A stretch of DNA of 64,000 bases from Kutzneria buriramensis (GTDB taxonomy: Bacteria > Actinomycetota > Actinomycetes > Mycobacteriales > Pseudonocardiaceae). A program made the translations under genes and the position numbers. Location of the stretch: assembly GCF_003387475.1 (NCBI RefSeq), contig NZ_QUNO01000003.1, positions 248,001 through 312,000 of the forward strand, written 5' to 3'. Shown here one piece after another: positions 4-15,313 of the stretch. Positions within the stretch are counted from its first letter, which is position 1, and each line of letters opens with the position of its first letter. The notes under the pieces were generated by a model. It was given only the letters and a program-made list of their open reading frames with translations, did no database searches and was not told the origin of the DNA.

Positions 4-2766
4 TTGACCAGGCAGAAGTGGCCCGCGTTCGGGGTCGTCGTCCTGCTCCTGCTCGTCGCGGCGGGCGTGTGGTGGGTCAACCGGCCGTCGCCGGAGCCCA
101 CCGTCGCCTCGCGCGACGTGCTGATCGACGTGGTGGACGGCCCGAACCACGACCAGCCGGTCGAACTGGACGCCACCTTCTACGTCCCGCAGGTCACACC
201 CGCGCCGGCGGTGCTGGTGTCGCCGGGTTTCGGCCAGACCAAGACCAACCTCGCCGACGACGCGACCGACCTCGCCCGCCGCGGCTTCGCCGTGCTGACG
301 TACTCGGCCCGCGGCTTCGGCCGCAGCACCGGCCAGATCGCGCTGAACTCGCCGGACTACGAGGTGCAGGACGCCGACCAGCTGATCTCCTGGCTGGCCC
401 GGCAGCCGGAGGTGCTCCAGGACGGCCCGGACAACCCGCGCGTCGGAGTGATGGGCGGCTCCTACGGCGGCGCGCTGGCCCTGATGCTGGCGGGCCTGGA
501 CAAGAAGAAGCGGGTCGACGCCGTCGCCTCGCTGATCACGTACAACGACCTCTCCCACGCCCTGCTGCCCAACGCCGCGAGCACCACCCCGCTGGACGGC
601 TCGACCCCGGGCACGGGCGTCGGCGGCGCGGACGGCGTGTTCAAGAAGGTCTGGGCCGGCAACCTCTTCGGCACGGCCCTGAGCAATATCGGGGGGCCCG
701 GCATCAACCCCAAGGCCCCGACCTCCTGCGGCCGGTTCCTCAAGGACGTCTGCGACGCGTACACGAAGGTCGCCACCACCGGGCGGGCCGACCAGGCGAC
801 GGTCGACCTGCTGCGGCGGAACTCGCCGGTGAGCGTCGCCGACCAGATCAGCGTGCCGACGCTGCTGGTGCAGGGCGAGCAGGACACGCTGTTCGGGCTG
901 GACCAGGCCGACGCCACGGCGAAGCAGCTGGCCAGGAACAACATCCCGGTCAAGGTGGACTGGTACCCCGGCGGCCACGACGGCGGCGCGCCCGGCGACG
1001 ACGTCCGCGGCGACGTCGCCGCCTGGTTCGCCTTCTACCTGATGAAGGGCGACGCCCCCAACCCCGGAACCGGCTTCTCCTACGAGGTCCAGGGCACGAT
1101 CCGGGCCCGCGGCGCGCCGATCACGCGGACGATCACCGCCCTGGACTACCCCGGCCTGCGCGGCGACCGCACGACCCGGCAGCGCGTGAGCCTGTCCGGC
1201 CCGCCGCAGCCGGTCGTCACACCGCCGGGCGGCAGCCCGGCGTCCATCAGCAGCCTGCCCGGCGTCGGCACGGCCCTGCTCGGCGGCTCGTCGACGGCGT
1301 CCAGCCTGGCCGGCAGCCTCGCGATCGACCTGCCCGGCCAGTCCGCGGTGTTCACGAGCGCCCCGCTGGACGCGCCGCTGATGATCGCCGGCTCCACGCT
1401 CACGACCCTGCGCATCGGCGCCGTCCCGAACGCCACCGACTCCGGCGACACCGAGCTGTTCGCCAAGTTGTACGACGTCGGCCCGGACGGCCGGCGGACG
1501 CTGCCGGGCGCGGCGGTCGCGCCGTTCCGGGTGCAGCTGCCGACCAACGGGACGGCGGTGGACGTGAACGTCAGCCTGCCGGGGATCGTCCGGCCGGTCG
1601 CTGCCGGGCACCGCCTGCAACTCGTCGTCACGACCACCGACCAGGCCTATGCCAACGCCACGACCCCATCGGTGCGGACGGTCGCGCTCTCCGGCGCGAT
1701 GTCGCTCCAGGTCCCGGTCGTCACCGGCAGCAGCGCCTCCGGCAGCGGCATCCCGGCCACGCCGGTGATCGGCATCGCGATCATCCTCGGCCTTGCGGTG
1801 CTCGTGGCCACCGTCGCCGCGCTGCGCCGCCGCGGCAGCGACGACGCCGACCCCGAGCTCGCCGACGTACCGATGGTGATCACCGGCCTGACCAAGTCTT
1901 ACCCGGGGCGGCTGACCGCCGTGAAGGAGCTGTCCTTCCGGGTGGAGCACGGCCAGGTGCTGGGCCTGCTCGGACCGAACGGCGCGGGCAAGACCACCAC
2001 CCTGCGCATGCTGATGGGCCTGGTCCGGCCCACGGCCGGCGAGATCCGGGTGTTCGGCCACAAGGTGCAGGCCGGCGCGCCGGTGCTGTCGCGGATCGGG
2101 TCGTTCGTGGAGGGCGCCGGCTTCCTGCCGCACCTGTCCGGCACCGCGAACCTGAGCCTGTACTGGGCGTCGACCGGGCGTCCGCTGGACGAGGCGCACC
2201 TGGCCGAGGCGCTGGAGATCGCCGGCCTCGGCGACGCCGTGCGGCGGCGGGTCGGCACATACAGCCAGGGCATGCGGCAACGGCTGGCGATCGCCCAGGC
2301 CATGCTGGGCCTGCCGGACCTGCTCGTGCTCGACGAGCCGACCAACGGGCTGGACCCGCCGCAGATCCACCAGATGCGCGACGTCCTCAAGCGGTACGCG
2401 GCGACCGGCCGGACCGTGGTGGTGTCCAGCCACCTGCTGTCCGAGGTCGAGCAGTCGTGCAGCCACGTCGTCGTCATGCACAAGGGCCGGCTGGTCGCGG
2501 CCGGCGAGGTGAACGACATCGTCGCCGGCGGCGGCGAGGCGACGTTCCGGGTGGACCGCGTCACCGACGCCGCCCGCGTCCTGCGCGACCTGAACGGCAC
2601 CTCGGGCGTGACGGCCGAGGGCCGGCTGGTGCACGCCGATCTGGGCACGACGTCGCGGTCGGCGGCGGTGACCGCGCTGGTCAACGCCGGGATCGCGGTC
2701 GAGCAGGCCGGGCCGCGCCGCCGGCTGGAGGACGCGTTCCTCCGGCTGGTGGAGAGCAACGACTAG
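4..2766 (+). CDS. Membrane-anchored CocE/X-Pro-dipeptidyl-peptidase-like hydrolase fused to an ABC transporter ATPase
   Basis: One 920-residue polypeptide joins two functions. An N-terminal membrane anchor (residues about 9-27) is followed by an alpha/beta hydrolase domain with nucleophile elbow GGSYGG (Ser near 153), acid in GEQDTLF (near 296) and His in GGHDGG (near 325). Then come a beta-rich X-Pro-peptidase C-domain (about 370-560), a second membrane segment (about 587-607), and an ABC ATPase with Walker A GPNGAGKTT (near 657), signature YSQGMRQR, Walker B VLDEPTNGLDP and switch VSSHLL. The topology places the hydrolase outside and the ATPase inside. The downstream permease starts 9 bases after the stop behind an AGGAGG site, so the two form one transporter. 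The TTG start lies at the window edge, so the true start may be further upstream. Transported substrate is unknown. Confidence 0.85.
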   Translation: MTRQKWPAFGVVVLLLLVAAGVWWVNRPSPEPTVASRDVLIDVVDGPNHDQPVELDATFYVPQVTPAPAVLVSPGFGQTKTNLADDATDLARRGFAVLTYSARGFGRSTGQIALNSPDYEVQDADQLISWLARQPEVLQDGPDNPRVGVMGGSYGGALALMLAGLDKKKRVDAVASLITYNDLSHALLPNAASTTPLDGSTPGTGVGGADGVFKKVWAGNLFGTALSNIGGPGINPKAPTSCGRFLKDVCDAYTKVATTGRADQATVDLLRRNSPVSVADQISVPTLLVQGEQDTLFGLDQADATAKQLARNNIPVKVDWYPGGHDGGAPGDDVRGDVAAWFAFYLMKGDAPNPGTGFSYEVQGTIRARGAPITRTITALDYPGLRGDRTTRQRVSLSGPPQPVVTPPGGSPASISSLPGVGTALLGGSSTASSLAGSLAIDLPGQSAVFTSAPLDAPLMIAGSTLTTLRIGAVPNATDSGDTELFAKLYDVGPDGRRTLPGAAVAPFRVQLPTNGTAVDVNVSLPGIVRPVAAGHRLQLVVTTTDQAYANATTPSVRTVALSGAMSLQVPVVTGSSASGSGIPATPVIGIAIILGLAVLVATVAALRRRGSDDADPELADVPMVITGLTKSYPGRLTAVKELSFRVEHGQVLGLLGPNGAGKTTTLRMLMGLVRPTAGEIRVFGHKVQAGAPVLSRIGSFVEGAGFLPHLSGTANLSLYWASTGRPLDEAHLAEALEIAGLGDAVRRRVGTYSQGMRQRLAIAQAMLGLPDLLVLDEPTNGLDPPQIHQMRDVLKRYAATGRTVVVSSHLLSEVEQSCSHVVVMHKGRLVAAGEVNDIVAGGGEATFRVDRVTDAARVLRDLNGTSGVTAEGRLVHADLGTTSRSAAVTALVNAGIAVEQAGPRRRLEDAFLRLVESND

Positions 2767-2775
2767 GAGGCGATC

Positions 2776-3714
2776 ATGACCGACGAGCACGGCGTGCACA
2801 CCGATCCGGCGGCGATCGCGGAACTGGTCGCCGTCGCCGAGAGCGAGCACGCCCAGGTCGCGGCGGACGGGTCCGTCGCCGGCTACCGCGCGTCGCGGAC
2901 GTTGAGGCTGGGCGTCGAACTACGTCGCCAACTGCGCCGCCGGCGCACCCAGTTCGCTGTCGCATTTCTCGGTGTGCTGCCGTTCCTGCTGCTGATCGCG
3001 TTCAAGGCCGCGCCCAGCAGCAACAGCGGCAGCCGGTCGGCGTCGTCGGCGTTCGTCGACCTGGCCACGTCCAGCGGCCTGAACTTCGCGATCTTCGCGC
3101 TGTTCGCCTCGGCCAGCTTCCTGCTGGTGGTGGTGATCGCGTTGTTCTTCGGCGACACCATCGCCTCCGAGGCGTCCTGGTCCAGTCTGAAGTACCTGCT
3201 CGCGATCCCCGTCCCCCGCGGCCGGCTGCTGCGCCAGAAGGCCGTCGTGTCCGGGATCCTGTCGCTGATCGGGCTGGTCGTGCTGCCGGCGATGGCCCTG
3301 GTCGTCGGCCTGATCTGGTACGGCAGCGGCGACCTGATCAGCACCACCGGCGAGTCGCTGCCGTTCGGCACCGGCCTGGCCCGGCTCGCGCTGGCCGTCG
3401 TCTACCTCGCCGTGTACCTGGTCTGGATCGCCGGCCTGGCGCTGCTGCTCTCGGTGTCCACGGACGCGCCGCTGGGCGCGGTCGGCGGCGCGGTGCTGGT
3501 GTCGATCGTGTCGCAGATCCTGGACTCGATCACCGCGCTGGGCGACCTGCGCGACTACCTGCCCTCGCACTACGCGACGGCGTGGTCCGACCTGCTCAGC
3601 GCCGACGTCGACTGGGGCGACATGACCCGCGGGGCGTTCTCCTCGCTGGCCTACGGCGCGATCTTCATGGCGCTGGCTGCCAGGCGCTTCGCGCGTAAGG
3701 ACATCACCTCTTAG
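2776..3714 (+). CDS. ABC transporter permease (ABC-2 type)
   Basis: This 312-residue integral membrane protein has a soluble N-terminal stretch of about 55 residues, then roughly six hydrophobic segments, beginning with AVAFLGVLPFLLLIAF and ending before a basic tail. It is the likely membrane partner of the upstream hydrolase-ATPase fusion: the ribosome site AGGAGG sits five bases before the ATG and the genes are nine bases apart. ABC-2 permeases paired with DrrA-like ATPases usually export drugs, lipids or peptides; the substrate here cannot be read from sequence. The 3' end overlaps the convergent EamA gene by 11 bases. Confidence 0.85.
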   Translation: MTDEHGVHTDPAAIAELVAVAESEHAQVAADGSVAGYRASRTLRLGVELRRQLRRRRTQFAVAFLGVLPFLLLIAFKAAPSSNSGSRSASSAFVDLATSSGLNFAIFALFASASFLLVVVIALFFGDTIASEASWSSLKYLLAIPVPRGRLLRQKAVVSGILSLIGLVVLPAMALVVGLIWYGSGDLISTTGESLPFGTGLARLALAVVYLAVYLVWIAGLALLLSVSTDAPLGAVGGAVLVSIVSQILDSITALGDLRDYLPSHYATAWSDLLSADVDWGDMTRGAFSSLAYGAIFMALAARRFARKDITS

Positions 3715-4600
3715 CCATCCACGTGGCGCCGGCGGAGGCCGCGACCACGCACAGGATCGCCAGCCACTGCACCGGCCGCAGGGTCTCGTGCAGGATCAGC
3801 ACCCCGGCCAGCGCGGCCACCGCCGGCTCGACACTCATCAGCACGCCGAACAGCCGCGGCGGGATCTTGCGCAGCGCCTCCAGCTCCAGCGAGTACGGGA
3901 TCACCGACGACAGCAGGGCCACCCCGAAGCCGACGATCAGGATCGTCGGGTTGAGCAGCGCCGAGCCGGCCTCGGCCACGCCGAACGGGGCGACCACCAG
4001 CGCGCCGACCGCCATGCCGATGGCCAGGCCCGAGCCGCCCGCGGTGGCCTCGCCCAGCTTGGCGCCGAGCAGGATGTACGACGCCCAGCACACCGCCGCG
4101 GCCAGCGCGAACAGAATGCCCGGCAGCGAGATGTCACCGCCGAGATCGGCCAGCAGCACCACACCCCCGCCGGCCAGCAGCGCCCACACCGCGTCCAGCC
4201 ACCGCCGGGACCCGGCCAGCGCGATGGCCAGCGGCCCGAGGAACTCGACGGTCACCGCGATGCCGAGGGGTAACCGCTGCAACGCCTCGTAGAAGGCGAG
4301 GTTCATCAGCCCCAGCACGCTGCCGTAGCCGAGCGTCACAACCCACTGGCGACGGGTCAGCCGGGTCCGGGGCCGCCAGACCGCCAGCAGCACCGCTGCC
4401 GCGAAGAACAGCCGCACGCCGGCCGAGCCGGCCGCCCCGACGAGCGGAAACAGGCCCTTGGCCAGCGCCGCGCCGAACTGGACGCTGATGATGCCGCCCA
4501 GCAGCAGGCCGGTCGGCGGCACCGACCCCAGCATGCGCCCGGCGATGTCGCCGAGACCACGCCGAGGAAGCCGTCCGGAGGTGCCGTCCACATAGACCAT
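3704..4600 (-). CDS. EamA/RhtA-family metabolite exporter
   Basis: A 298-residue transporter of the drug/metabolite superfamily with about ten hydrophobic segments in two EamA repeats. Typical pieces are RLFFAAAVLLAVW, a central YILLGAKLGEA and the conserved end of the second repeat, VIPYSLELEALRKIPPRLFG then SVEPAVAALAGVLILHE. That last signature is characteristic of RhtA-like threonine/homoserine exporters, so amino-acid export is plausible but not shown. I chose ATG 4600 because GGGGG lies at a usable distance upstream; ATG 4606 and ATG 4534 are alternatives. It is divergent from the TAP-like lipoprotein gene. Confidence 0.85.
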   Translation of the reverse strand: MVYVDGTSGRLPRRGLGDIAGRMLGSVPPTGLLLGGIISVQFGAALAKGLFPLVGAAGSAGVRLFFAAAVLLAVWRPRTRLTRRQWVVTLGYGSVLGLMNLAFYEALQRLPLGIAVTVEFLGPLAIALAGSRRWLDAVWALLAGGGVVLLADLGGDISLPGILFALAAAVCWASYILLGAKLGEATAGGSGLAIGMAVGALVVAPFGVAEAGSALLNPTILIVGFGVALLSSVIPYSLELEALRKIPPRLFGVLMSVEPAVAALAGVLILHETLRPVQWLAILCVVAASAGATWMAKR

Positions 4601-11575: not shown

Positions 11576-12082
11576 ATGGACACCACAGACGTCGACGAAG
11601 CCGGCGGCCGAAACGAGGAGTCGGCACACAAATCCCAGCTGGCGCAACGGGTCAGGGCTCGCCGGGTGGAGATCGACGCCTTCCTCGACCGGGCTCGTCC
11701 GCGCAATTCCCGGCTGGCGGTGACCAGTGTCGTCAGCAGCGCGCTGGCCGCCGTGCTGACCGGCGCGCCGGCCGTCGGCGGCGACGAACTGGCCGGCGCC
11801 GCGCAGAAAATGCTGGGCCTGGGCCAGGAATCGGCGATCTGGCGGACGTTGTGCCTGCTCGCGTTGGCGGCCTCGGTGATCGCGGGGGTCTGCACGAACC
11901 TGACGCGTTCGCAGAACACCGCCGCGCGGATCGGCATCGCCGAGACGGCCAACGCGGAACTGGACAACCTGGAGACTCAGCTCGAACTCGGCCAGCTGAG
12001 ACTGGACGCCGCGCTGAAGCTCTACCAGCAGAGCACCGCCAAGGTGACGTTCATCGACGAGGACCTCGCCCCTCGTCGATAG
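11576..12082 (+). CDS. Small membrane protein with two TM segments and a C-terminal coiled coil
   Basis: A 168-residue protein I do not recognise. A charged N-terminus (to about 45) precedes two hydrophobic segments (about 47-62, LAVTSVVSSALAAVL, and about 100-118, LCLLALAASVIAGVC) and a cytosolic C-terminal helix rich in Leu/Glu/Gln (ELDNLETQLELGQL). The layout resembles SLATT-type effector-associated membrane proteins, but that is a shape comparison only. No clear ribosome site precedes ATG 11576. Its 3' end overlaps the convergent acetyltransferase gene by 32 bases. Confidence 0.6.
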   Translation: MDTTDVDEAGGRNEESAHKSQLAQRVRARRVEIDAFLDRARPRNSRLAVTSVVSSALAAVLTGAPAVGGDELAGAAQKMLGLGQESAIWRTLCLLALAASVIAGVCTNLTRSQNTAARIGIAETANAELDNLETQLELGQLRLDAALKLYQQSTAKVTFIDEDLAPRR

Positions 12083-12527
12083 CCGGCTCGCGTTTGACGG
12101 GGTAGGAGTACATGACCATCTCCACGTACTTGGACACCTTGTCGTAGAAGGGCCGGGAGATCGGGTCGGACTCGGGGGTGTTCCAGTAGAACCGGCCGGC
12201 GCCCTGGTCGGCGGCGTGCCGGGCGAGCCAGTCGAGCAGTTGCCGTCCGACGCCGTGGCGCCGGATGTCCTTGTCCACGAACAGGTCGGCGAGGTAGAGG
12301 GCGGTGGACCGCCAGACGCCGACGTGGAAGTAGTAGTGGGCGATGCCGACCATGCGGCCGTCGATCCGGGCGGCGATGCCGTGGATCTCCGTGGCTGCCA
12401 GGAGACGGCCCCAGACACGGTCGTACGCGTCGTCGGGTTCGGGAGCGTTGAAGTGATCCTTGAAGGCCCGGGTCAGGGTCTCCCACTCGACACGGTCGGA
12501 CGCGACCAGGGGGCTGATCTCCACCAT
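12051..12527 (-). CDS. GNAT-family N-acetyltransferase
   Basis: A 158-residue acetyltransferase using acetyl-CoA. The acetyl-CoA loop region reads VDKDIRRHGVGRQLLDWLARHA (Q/RxxGxG/A at RRHGVG), preceded by the beta-4 strand ALYLADLFV, and the C-terminal FYDKVSKYVEMVMYSYPV is typical of single-domain GNATs. The substrate is unknown. I chose ATG 12527 (MVEISPLVASDRV) because family similarity begins there; ATG 12560 would add 11 residues. Confidence 0.85.
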   Translation of the reverse strand: MVEISPLVASDRVEWETLTRAFKDHFNAPEPDDAYDRVWGRLLAATEIHGIAARIDGRMVGIAHYYFHVGVWRSTALYLADLFVDKDIRRHGVGRQLLDWLARHAADQGAGRFYWNTPESDPISRPFYDKVSKYVEMVMYSYPVKREPAIDEGRGPRR

Positions 12528-12595
12528 GGCGGCGATCCTGCCACACGGCAAGGCATCCACACCGGAACGGGATCACTGTCCACTGAGGACTTTTG

Positions 12596-12928
12596 TCAAC
12601 GACGCGGCCGCCACCACGGTCGGCGCGGCGCCACCAGGTGATTGTTCGAGACGAGCCAAGCGCCGAAGTTGTCGGCGTCCTGGCGCGCCCGCGTGTCGTC
12701 GCGCTTGGGATGGCCGAGCGCGTACTCGGCGAACAGGGGGCCGAAGCGGTCGCCGAGTTCGTCGGCGAGGTCGGGGCGCAGGTTGCGGGTGATCCGGCCA
12801 CGCTTGGCCAGCAGCGCGCGAGCCTGCACGCGGATCCGGTCGGCGTCGAAACCGGCGGGCGTGGGACCGTCGGCGAGCAGCGCCTGGAGCAGCGAAGCCT
12901 GTTGGGCGGCAACAGCTTCCCGGGTCAT
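12596..12928 (-). CDS. Small partner protein of the DUF692/MNIO enzyme (SCO6045-like)
   Basis: A 110-residue, Arg/Ala-rich soluble protein starting [18 protein letters not shown], with [21 protein letters not shown] and [24 protein letters not shown]. In MNIO systems a small partner protein next to the DUF692 enzyme presents the peptide substrate (MbnC for MbnB); the position and coupling here suggest the same job. Its ATG overlaps the DUF692 stop by four bases (ATGA), so it is third in a fully coupled operon. I connect it with the SCO6045-like family from memory; binding function is inferred. Confidence 0.72.
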
Positions 12929-13731
12929 GACAGCACGGCCCGGATGGCGGCGAGCTCGGCGGCGAGGTCGGCGTCGCTGGGGTAGTCGTCGTCACGCTCC
13001 AGCAGCACGCCGGGCGGGTCGACGCGGGCGCAGAGGTCGCCGAGCAGGTCGAGGACGACGTCGGGCATCGCGTGGGCATGCGTGTCGTGGTACAGACCGT
13101 CCCGCTCGACGCCGCCGGCTACGTGCACGTAAGCCAGGCGCTCCAAGGGAAGCGTGGCGAGGAAGGCAGCGGGGTCGGTACCGATGTTCCGCGCGTTGGC
13201 GTGGAGATTGGCGACGTCGACCAGCAGCCGGCAGTCGGTGCGCTCGACGAGCTCGGCGAGGAACTGGCCCTCGGTGAGCTCGGCGTCGGGCCAGTCGAAC
13301 AGCGCGGCCACGTTCTCCAGGGCCAGCGGCACCGGCAGTTCCCGTTGCGCCTGCCGGACATTGGCCACCAACACGGCCAGCGCGTCACGGGTGCGCGGCA
13401 GCGGCATGAGGTGCCCGGCGTCGAGCCCGCCGGCCCGGACGAAACAGACATGGTCGCTGACCATCGGCGCGTCCAGCGCCTCGGCGACGGCGGCGAGGTG
13501 CTCGACCCGCCGCATGTCCAGCGGCTCGGCCCCGCCGAGGGAGAGGGACACGGCGTGCGGCAGCACCGGCACGCCGCGACCCCGGAGCAGCCGCAGCGAC
13601 GAAGGCAGGTCGCCGGCCATGAGGTTCTCGGCGACCACCTCCACGAAGTCCACATCGGACAGTCGCTCGACGGTCAGATCGATCTCCGGCCGCCACCCGA
13701 TGCCGACCCCGAGCCGCGGACCGGCGCTCAC
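12925..13731 (-). CDS. DUF692 / multinuclear non-heme iron oxidative enzyme (MNIO)
   Basis: A 268-residue TIM-barrel enzyme of the MbnB/TglH family, which uses two or three irons and O2 to rearrange Cys or other residues in ribosomal peptides. Candidate metal ligands are in [57 protein letters not shown] and LLERDDD, so the active site looks intact. GTG 13731 overlaps the TGA of the upstream Gly/Cys-tailed gene by four bases; ATG 13740 is an alternative. The four Cys in the upstream protein's tail are its obvious candidate substrate (inference). Length is normal for the family. Confidence 0.88.
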
Positions 13732-14621
13732 CCGCCGCATCCGCCGCATCCGCCACCTCCGCCGCCGCCACCTCCACAGCCCCCACCGCCACCGCCACCG
13801 CCACAGCCGCCCCCGCCGCCACCACCGATGAAGAAGCCGGCGGCCGCGCCGCTGCTGGTGGCCATCGTCCGTTGCCGGCGGCCCAGCACCTCGGACCTCC
13901 GCAGCGCCTCGGCGATCCGGACGTCCGGGTAGTGGCGGAGCCCGCGCAGCGCGACGGTCGTCGCGACGTCGGGCGACGGCATGCGGCGCAGCTCGCGCAG
14001 TACTCGGCGACCGGTGCCGGTGCACACGCTCCGACGACGGGTGACCACCAGCACGAACAGCAGGATGACCGTCCCGATCAGCGACAGCCACAGGAAGCCG
14101 ACGGGCCGGCTCAGCGAGATGCCGTTCACCAGACGGACGATGCCCACGATCAGCACCCCCAGCGTCGGCACCGCCGCGAGGAGACGGTTGAGCTTCTCCG
14201 CCCGTGGCGACAGCAGCAGCCCCTGTTCGGCCAGCCCGGCGCCGACCTCCCACAGCGCGGTCCGCCGACCCAGGTACTCGATGACGTCCGGGAAGCTGTG
14301 CCCGGCCTGCGTCCGCGCGAGGATGTCGGCGGTGAGCCCGTCGCGGGCCGTCACGGCGCCGGTGGACCGGAGCAGGCCGCCGCTGTCGGCGCGCAGCGCG
14401 CCGGACGCCAGCATGCCCGCGATGGCCGCCTCCACGGCCCGCCCCGGTCCGCCCGCCAGCCAACCCGCGTCGACGGCGGACGGCCGGACGCCGTGAATCG
14501 GATCACCAGCGAGTTTCGGCAGATTTCTGATCACCAGGGCGAGTACGATCGCCGCGCCGATTCCGACGAAATACCATTCCAGGAACTGCGCGCCGGTCAG
14601 TCCCCAAGGATCCGGTCCCAT
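13728..14621 (-). CDS. TIGR04222-type membrane protein with a Gly/Cys-rich C-terminal tail; candidate MNIO substrate
   Basis: A 297-residue protein. The N-terminus [17 protein letters not shown] leads into a membrane segment (about 17-35), matching the TIGR04222 domain; two more hydrophobic segments (about 150-170 and 175-198) lie mid-protein. After FFI near residue 263 the rest is almost pure glycine in the order G7-C-G8-C-G9-C-GG-C-GG-stop, giving four Cys. A repetitive Gly/Cys tail directly coupled to a DUF692 gene suggests a precursor or scaffold whose tail is modified. GGGGTGGG precedes ATG 14621. The 257 bases upstream, to the msrB stop at 14879, hold no gene. Confidence 0.85.
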
Positions 14622-14878: not shown

Positions 14879-15313
14879 CTATTGGGCTTCGCCCGTCTGG
14901 GGGACAAGGCGGAGGGAAATGCTGTTGATGCAATACCTCTGGTCCGTCGGCGTCGGGTAGCCCTCGCCCTCGAACACGTGCCCGAGGTGGCTGTGGCAGG
15001 TCGCGCACAGCACCTCGACGCGGACCATACCGAGCTCCCGGTCCTCGCGCAGGATCACCCGGTCGCCGGCCAGCGGCGAGAAGAACGACGGCCAGCCGCA
15101 GTGCGAGTCGAACTTGGTGTCGCTGCGGAACAGCTCCGCGCCGCAGGCGCGGCACTCGTAGACGCCGGTGGTCTTGGTGTCGGTGTACTCGCCGACCCAC
15201 GGCCGTTCGGTGGCCGCCTGGCGCAGGACGGCGTACTCATGCGGGGTGAGCTGCTCGCGCCATTCCTGCTCGGACTTGACGACCTTGGGGGTGGCTCCGA
15301 CGACTGGTTCCAT
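14879..15313 (-). CDS. msrB: Peptide-methionine (R)-S-oxide reductase
   Basis: A 144-residue MsrB, which reduces methionine-R-sulfoxide in oxidised proteins using thioredoxin. The two zinc-binding CxxC pairs (ECRACG and LCATCH) and the catalytic Cys in RYCINS are all present, with the typical HCGWPSFF and GHVFEGEG stretches. Full family length. It lies at one end of the segment that is collinear, from memory, with M. tuberculosis Rv2674 onward. Confidence 0.95.
   Translation of the reverse strand: MEPVVGATPKVVKSEQEWREQLTPHEYAVLRQAATERPWVGEYTDTKTTGVYECRACGAELFRSDTKFDSHCGWPSFFSPLAGDRVILREDRELGMVRVEVLCATCHSHLGHVFEGEGYPTPTDQRYCINSISLRLVPQTGEAQ

Follow-up and report, generated by a model that had tools for sequence, protein, structure and literature searches.

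We propose that three overlapping genes in a 64,000-nucleotide stretch of the Kutzneria buriramensis genome (the window, in full) make a modified membrane protein, and we lean towards an explanation in which an MNIO and a partner of PME type 2 would oxidise the Cys residues of a glycine-rich tail on a TIGR04222 protein at the cytoplasmic face of the membrane. It is well supported that this trio is a member of a system already described but uncharacterised, with a topology that has to be revised and a tail that is modular.

The cassette type is already in print and is not new. Antoine et al. 2025 (PMC12452194) describe TIGR04222 proteins beside MNIOs, mainly in Actinomycetota, count more than 3,500 such proteins at below 90% identity, most of them from actinobacteria, and define the PME type 2 class of partner, with a 115-residue Saccharothrix protein as one example; their TIGR04222-MNIO-PME2 clusters have the same three components as the window. 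They also propose that the Cys-bearing C-termini of TIGR04222 proteins are MNIO substrates, so that what the earlier note on this DNA had offered as a new idea was anticipated, while the modification and role of TIGR04222 are left in the available text of that paper for later investigation. A TIGR04222 peptide is mentioned, too, in a predicted bacteriocin cluster in a 2016 Pseudonocardia paper (PMC5183585). In the literature that we searched, which covered few subscription papers, we found no experimental work on TIGR04222-MNIO modification. Beyond the available text of Antoine et al. (PMC12452194), we contribute a predicted cytoplasmic placement of the tail and single-pass carriers of it at eight MNIO-partner loci.

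The three-gene cassette and the genome surveys

All three genes are read from the minus strand, each pair sharing 4 nt, and the coordinates, both overlaps and the Gly/Cys tail are confirmed as the earlier note gave them (Table 1). Such coupling recurs among relatives, with ATGA or GTGA at the gene end in 27 of the 45 MNIO-adjacent TIGR04222 homologues of the order survey.

Table 1. Positions in the window of the three genes, their overlaps and the segments of the TIGR04222 protein.
Feature	Position	Strand	Basis or remark
TIGR04222 membrane protein gene, 297 aa, ATG start	13728-14621	-	NCBIfam profile
MNIO gene (PF05114), 268 aa, GTG start	12925-13731	-	Pfam profile
PME-type-2-like partner gene, 110 aa, ATG start	12596-12928	-	own profile, gene order
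GTGA overlap, TIGR04222 stop / MNIO GTG start	13728-13731	-	
ATGA overlap, partner ATG start / MNIO stop	12925-12928	-	
Membrane helix 1 (predicted), residues 10-37	14511-14594	-	model helix; N-terminus predicted outside
Winged-helix-like domain, residues 49-132, between helices 1 and 2	14226-14477	-	predicted cytoplasmic; model, DUF2207_C homology
Membrane helix 2 (predicted), residues 139-169	14115-14207	-	model
Membrane helix 3 (predicted), residues 175-193, then Arg-rich stretch	14043-14099	-	model
Gly/Cys tail G7-C-G8-C-G9-C-GG-C-GG	13731-13826	-	disordered in model, pLDDT about 40

The comparisons below draw on surveys of the order (150 genomes), the phylum (246 genomes) and the class (345 genomes), and on a set of named loci that comprises the best 80 of 565 relatives of the MNIO. 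We call a TIGR04222 gene MNIO-adjacent if an MNIO gene on the same strand is no more than 600 nt away, and we require three or more Cys among the final 60 residues for a Cys tail. No more than 17, 11 or 8 first-look candidates per genome were scored in the TIGR04222 searches, which makes the TIGR04222 counts lower bounds. Of the TIGR04222 matches in the order survey that fell short of the cut-off, 16 were excluded and one at 37 bits (G076:C1:1263308) was retained; two of the 89 retained rows, one at a contig end and one with an internal stop, stand outside the tail counts. The 60 loci of the class survey were chosen by eye and read, and they serve as examples, not rates. Alignments took in 52 of 56 partner references, 44 of 79 TIGR04222 references, and 41 and 31 of 64 MNIO references.

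The MNIO and its partner

The window MNIO scores 283.1 bits against PF05114 (gathering score 25), and its relatives in the PDB include 3bww (E 2.6e-57), TglH (8hci, E 5.9e-49) and MbnB (7dz9, E 6.9e-18). Ten residues, E31, H59, H94, E139, D172, N175, H203, D216, H218 and E245, are invariant in 41 aligned MNIOs, and those other than N175, D216 and H218 we take to be metal ligands. These three align, by way of the 3bww alignment, with N175, D242 and H244 of site 3 in HvfB (PMC13419390). The set of iron ligands appears complete, as the earlier note had it. Among the NCBIfam equivalogs tested, the enzyme scores highest against BufB (202 bits, cut-off 310) and then HvfB (174, cut-off 360), reaching neither cut-off, nor those of ApyH (114 of 400), ChrH (51 of 600) or MbnB (48.8 of 325). 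The closest named relative among the best 80 of 565 is that of Kutzneria sp. CA-103260, whose MNIO is 90% identical. A search of viral contigs found no relative; in a plasmid collection, 356 records match the MNIO, three at 60-80% identity and 353 below 60%. By inspection, neither the MNIO nor the partner has a signal peptide.

The partner had been called a known component of MNIO peptide systems, a description that is supported by gene order, by homologues and by a weak structural match; neither Pfam nor NCBIfam gives the window partner a match above chance. Its gene directly follows that of the MNIO, and the DUF2063 Pfam signature is absent. The AlphaFold2 model (pLDDT 89.8) consists of four helices, without the longer C-terminus of some relatives such as that at L097. 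The top Foldseek match in the PDB is chain C of the MbnABC complex (7dz9_C), a weak one (E 2.5, prob 0.35), and 3dee (NGO1945) and TglI are absent from the ten matches, of which the top is itself weak; a search of PDB sequences with the partner profile gave six weak matches, with no MNIO partner among them. The methanobactin pair MbnBC (7dz9) resembles the window pair in having a related MNIO and, weakly, a similar partner, but the window lacks a short leader-core precursor and its MNIO falls far below the MbnB cut-off.

A profile grown from the window partner finds a partner at 44 of the 45 TIGR04222-adjacent MNIO loci of the order, G101 being the exception, whereas many clusters seem partner-less in the available text of Antoine et al. 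(PMC12452194). Where no TIGR04222 gene is listed beside the MNIO (order and phylum surveys), the partner is absent at G086, G008:C241, G009, G054:C23, G238, G202 and G242, and present at G084, G112, G008:C50, G073, a remnant in G000:C7, G172 and G337. Among the best 80 of 565 relatives it occurs at 79 of the 80 named loci, and at 23 of them, all labelled Streptomyces, it lies in the same frame as the MNIO; an engineered HvfB-HvfC fusion is active (PMC13419390).

The TIGR04222 protein and the topology of its tail

The first protein of the trio scores 104.7 bits against TIGR04222 (NCBIfam cut-off 43) and does not match DUF2282, the bufferin-precursor signature; where such precursors have a Sec signal peptide, its N-terminus appears to run into a membrane helix. 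Its AlphaFold2 model (mean pLDDT 84.4) has no Foldseek match at E <= 0.001; the winged-helix-like domain, built in the model of helices and two strands, gives weak profile matches to CRP/FNR and MarR-type chains (best E 0.006). The final 33 residues read I-G7-C-G8-C-G9-C-GG-C-GG and are not a uniform DNA repeat, since the Gly codons are mixed (14 GGC, 7 GGT, 4 GGA and 3 GGG, with 2 TGT and 2 TGC for Cys). In the 45 MNIO-adjacent tails of the order survey, the exact CGG terminus is found in 41, a small residue follows 214 of the 215 Cys (175 G, 36 S, 3 A, 1 N), and a Cys spacing of 6 is the commonest (80 of 170). Both Kutzneria tails retain four Cys and differ in the lengths of their Gly runs.

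The earlier note had suggested that the tail is at the cell surface, and Antoine et al. (PMC12452194), in the text available, predict a periplasmic tail. Our prediction contradicts both: we regard it as likely, from charge bias and homology, that the tail stays cytoplasmic and is neither periplasmic nor exposed at the surface. The N-terminus of the window protein runs into membrane helix 1 with no K or R ahead of it, and across 79 homologues K+R per residue rises from 0.011 ahead of helix 1 to 0.197 behind it; the values are 0.249 ahead of helix 2, 0.134 in the segment that joins helices 2 and 3, and 0.247 past helix 3. The tail side has more K+R in 79 of 79.

An unlikely alternative, though the strongest of those that we weighed, is a bufferin-like route, in which MNIO-PME2 would modify the tail in the cytosol and the product would go on to bind metal in the periplasm or outside. 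Besides the prediction of Antoine et al., it can call on the periplasmic action of bufferins (PMC12452194) and on the 41 of 79 homologues in which a lax cut-off picks out more than three hydrophobic segments. The hydrophobic stretch at residues 217-232, just before the tail, scores above 1.6 (19-residue window) in 29% of 78 homologues, and a membrane-spanning role for it would put the tail outside. The charge bias about the three main helices speaks against this route, and so does the stretch itself, whose median score is 1.38 against 2.1-2.4 for the three helices, and which in the window protein contains R226, R229 and H230 and forms in the model only an 8-residue helix (219-226).

Homology points the same way. 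Weak TIGR04222 matches in long frames were DUF2207 proteins in four of four tested, and comparison of the TIGR04222 and DUF2207_C profiles gave probabilities of 94.6 and 97.1, the latter with 13 of 22 DUF2207 rows, nine having been dropped for want of the motif although some (L160, L166) looked genuine. These profile comparisons support homology between TIGR04222 and the C-terminal part of DUF2207 proteins, PF20990 (L197-L203). Proteins with PF09972 and PF20990 share with it a transmembrane segment, a winged-helix-like domain and a transmembrane hairpin, and the DUF2207 protein at L203 ends in a Gly-rich stretch like the TIGR04222 tail; they differ in carrying an extra N-terminal domain and, in seven inspected, in having no Cys tail. 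That N-terminal domain, which is of an extracellular type and follows a hydrophobic segment, would be outside, which would put the winged-helix domain and the C-terminus inside. We also considered that the winged-helix domain of the substrate replaces the missing RRE, which we do not favour; DUF2207 proteins have the same domain.

Co-occurrence of Cys tails with MNIO genes

The case for the tail as the substrate draws on its distribution. In the order survey, at least 51 of 150 genomes have a TIGR04222 protein over the cut-off and 49 have an MNIO. Forty-five of the 89 TIGR04222 matches are MNIO-adjacent (43 genomes, 17 genera), and all 45 have at least three tail Cys, against 15 of the 42 complete others. 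An MNIO is present in 44 of 44 genomes with a Cys-tailed TIGR04222 protein, including every genome that holds one of the 15 non-adjacent Cys tails, and in genomes without an MNIO Cys tails number 0 of 4. Fisher values of 4e-12 for tails and 1e-32 for genomes overstate independence because the genomes are related, and they are not true probabilities. The earlier note had staked its proposal on co-occurrence of the tail and DUF692 in other genomes; this co-occurrence is what we find, and it strengthens the tail's standing as the probable substrate. Five MNIO genomes lack a Cys tail: G084 and G112, where contigs end, G009 and G086, whose MNIOs have no partner, and G073, to which we return below.

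A point against the proposal comes from the other TIGR04222 copies of the order survey: 10 of the 20 that are clustered and 5 of the 18 that are distant bear Cys tails too, so that one enzyme would have to serve several tails. Five Lentzea loci (L216, L219, L220, L221 and L222) have 3-5 tandem TIGR04222 genes beside one MNIO-partner pair, most of them with differing Cys tails, and suggest likewise one enzyme for several tails.

In the phylum survey, at least 10 of 246 genomes have TIGR04222 over the cut-off and 14 have an MNIO; in G172 and G337 the MNIO and partner are fused and no TIGR04222 protein is listed. Every ORF of at least 50 aa was checked for a Cys tail at 20 TIGR04222 loci from class genomes without a listed MNIO (our own profile re-found TIGR04222 at 16 of these picks), and one was found, at L318, where an MNIO fragment runs off the contig start. 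Among the best 80 of 565 relatives, TIGR04222 lies on the same strand at 75 of the 80 named MNIO loci, at 64 of them with at least three Cys. Like G172 and G337, several loci count against the proposal: six Streptomyces loci with MNIO and partner at which the flank holds only Cys-less TIGR04222 (L261, L265, L272, L276, L281 and L283), two more with no TIGR04222 in the fetched flank (L259 and L277), and four loci with two tail Cys or fewer (L237, L245, L248 and L260). Taken with the chemistry of related enzymes discussed below, this distribution makes it likely, in our judgement, that the Gly/Cys tail is the MNIO substrate.

Minimal anchors and other carriers of the tail

At the MNIO-partner locus of G073 there is no TIGR04222 gene; a third gene, overlapping the partner by ATGA, encodes instead a 96-aa protein in which a membrane helix is followed by a stretch rich in Arg and by a tail of Ser, Gly and Cys. 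Twelve of 13 class MNIO loci picked by eye for having no adjoining TIGR04222 gene have a partner, and seven of these twelve encode an 83-115-aa single-pass Cys-tailed protein like that of G073. The gene order is MNIO-tail-partner in six of the seven, the tail gene sharing four bases with the MNIO in L294, L296, L297, L299 and L302; at L305 both the order and the ATGA overlap are as in G073. With start codons chosen by the analyst, as also for the L301 protein below, all eight single-pass proteins have 0-1 K+R before the helix and 6-8 after it, and are predicted by charge to be N-out/C-in, a further point against a tail that ends up in the periplasm.

These single-pass anchors stand in the place of TIGR04222, which makes the tail, and not the TIGR04222 body, the shared feature; the tail looks like the conserved target. 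The available text of Antoine et al. (PMC12452194) does not appear to contain single-pass Cys-tailed proteins of this kind, which may be the small proteins called adjamnio-V there. A possible third carrier is encoded at L301 (G636), immediately upstream of an MNIO that has a partner, in the minus-strand frame 2595-3951. This protein, apparently soluble and, its start being uncertain, 370-452 aa long, also has a Gly/Cys tail.

We tentatively extend the proposal to a Gly/Ser/His/Cys tail that is portable, riding on two or more unrelated anchors (the three-helix protein of TIGR04222/DUF2207_C type and the single-pass protein) and perhaps on the L301 protein, and that a dedicated MNIO-PME2 pair would oxidise at the inner membrane face, although we put this somewhat short of an even chance. 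If true, the portable-tail system would modify proteins to create a metal-binding surface that stays tethered on the cytosolic side, whereas characterised MNIO pathways yield peptides.

Proposed chemistry and function

In the mechanism that we favour, the MNIO and its PME2 partner would oxidise the Cys residues of the flexible TIGR04222 tail at the cytoplasmic membrane face, where both proteins would also reside, most likely to 5-thiooxazole-type heterocycles in series, each Cys losing about 4 Da, like the products of the related enzymes HvfB and FonB, and the modified tail would serve as a membrane-tethered binder of soft metals, perhaps copper, on the inner face. FonBC and HvfBC turn repeated Cys into 5-thiooxazoles (PMC13097082, PMC13419390), and FonBC favours a small residue after Cys, one Cys-Tyr substrate being modified once (PMC13097082). 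For fontiphorin, absorbance near 305 nm and trapping with iodoacetamide have been reported. The window trio resembles HvfABC and FonABC (PMC13419390, PMC13097082) in pairing an MNIO with a partner, in repeated Cys followed by a small residue, and in common ligand residues. Those systems act on EGKCG-repeat peptides with a DUF2063-RRE partner, whereas in the trio the protein that carries the Gly/Cys tail is a membrane protein and the partner is short. By this analogy, we give Cys-to-thiooxazole conversion in the tail about an even chance; copper buffering is more speculative, and we suggest it with the balance leaning against it.

It is improbable, though in keeping with some of the loci, that the tail is an accessory, either a Cys/Gly metallochaperone or a membrane dock, which would load or recruit MNIO-PME2 for action on some other peptide. 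Some MNIO-PME2 loci do lack a Cys tail in their vicinity: at L300 and L303 no Cys tail was found beside the MNIO and partner, and the partner-bearing MNIOs of G470 and G479:C1 have none nearby, with Cys-tailed TIGR04222 elsewhere in the genome (L333, L338). The several Cys-tailed paralogues per enzyme in Lentzea would also suit an accessory. Against it, of the 248 Cys-tailed ORFs rich in Gly/Ser that occur in 284 sequences, a set with some redundant loci, 244 match the TIGR04222 profile, other kinds of precursor sought in 11 loci yielded no clear candidate beyond that of G073, and FonBC accepts just such repeated Cys followed by a small residue (PMC13097082).

Should the tail be a cytosol-facing substrate, as we favour, MNIO chemistry would extend from peptides to resident membrane proteins, and the 83-115-aa single-pass versions would offer a small, tractable substrate for its study.

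Neighbouring genes and further copies

An MsrB gene lies directly upstream of the trio on the same strand (window 14879-15313, minus). Among the best 80 of 565 relatives, MsrB is near the MNIO at 46 of the 80 named loci, asparaginase II at 16, and what is presumably a HemQ-like gene at 30. The MsrB neighbourhood is probably shared synteny rather than function, though MsrB may have a redox link to the trio. The recurrent neighbours listed for these 80 loci, a listing short of full annotation, include no conspicuous gene for metal homeostasis. Past the partner gene by 35 bases begins a GNAT acetyltransferase gene on the same strand (window 12051-12560, minus), and a GNAT protein like it was found at 0 of the 80 named loci (best 80 of 565).

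Inherited gene position could in principle, together with a GC content of 70-73% and Gly-run lengths that vary between close relatives, reflect low-complexity noise, in which the Gly runs arise by GC-rich slippage, their Cys are incidental and nothing beyond synteny links them to the MNIO, but the mixed Gly codons, the four Cys retained in both Kutzneria relatives, the recurrent CGG terminus and the company that Cys tails keep with MNIOs in other gene orders and on other anchors make this very improbable.

The source genome holds two further copies. One, a remnant (L005/L144, G000:C7, around 432393-432674), joins the C-terminal third of an MNIO and a partner in one frame, behind the apparent N-terminus of what we take to be an amino-acid N-monooxygenase. 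The other (L067, G000:C19:49000-60000) is a second cassette, in which a single frame after the TIGR04222 gene encodes the MNIO and a partner domain, and the TIGR04222 tail ends in CGGGCGGGCGGGCGG.
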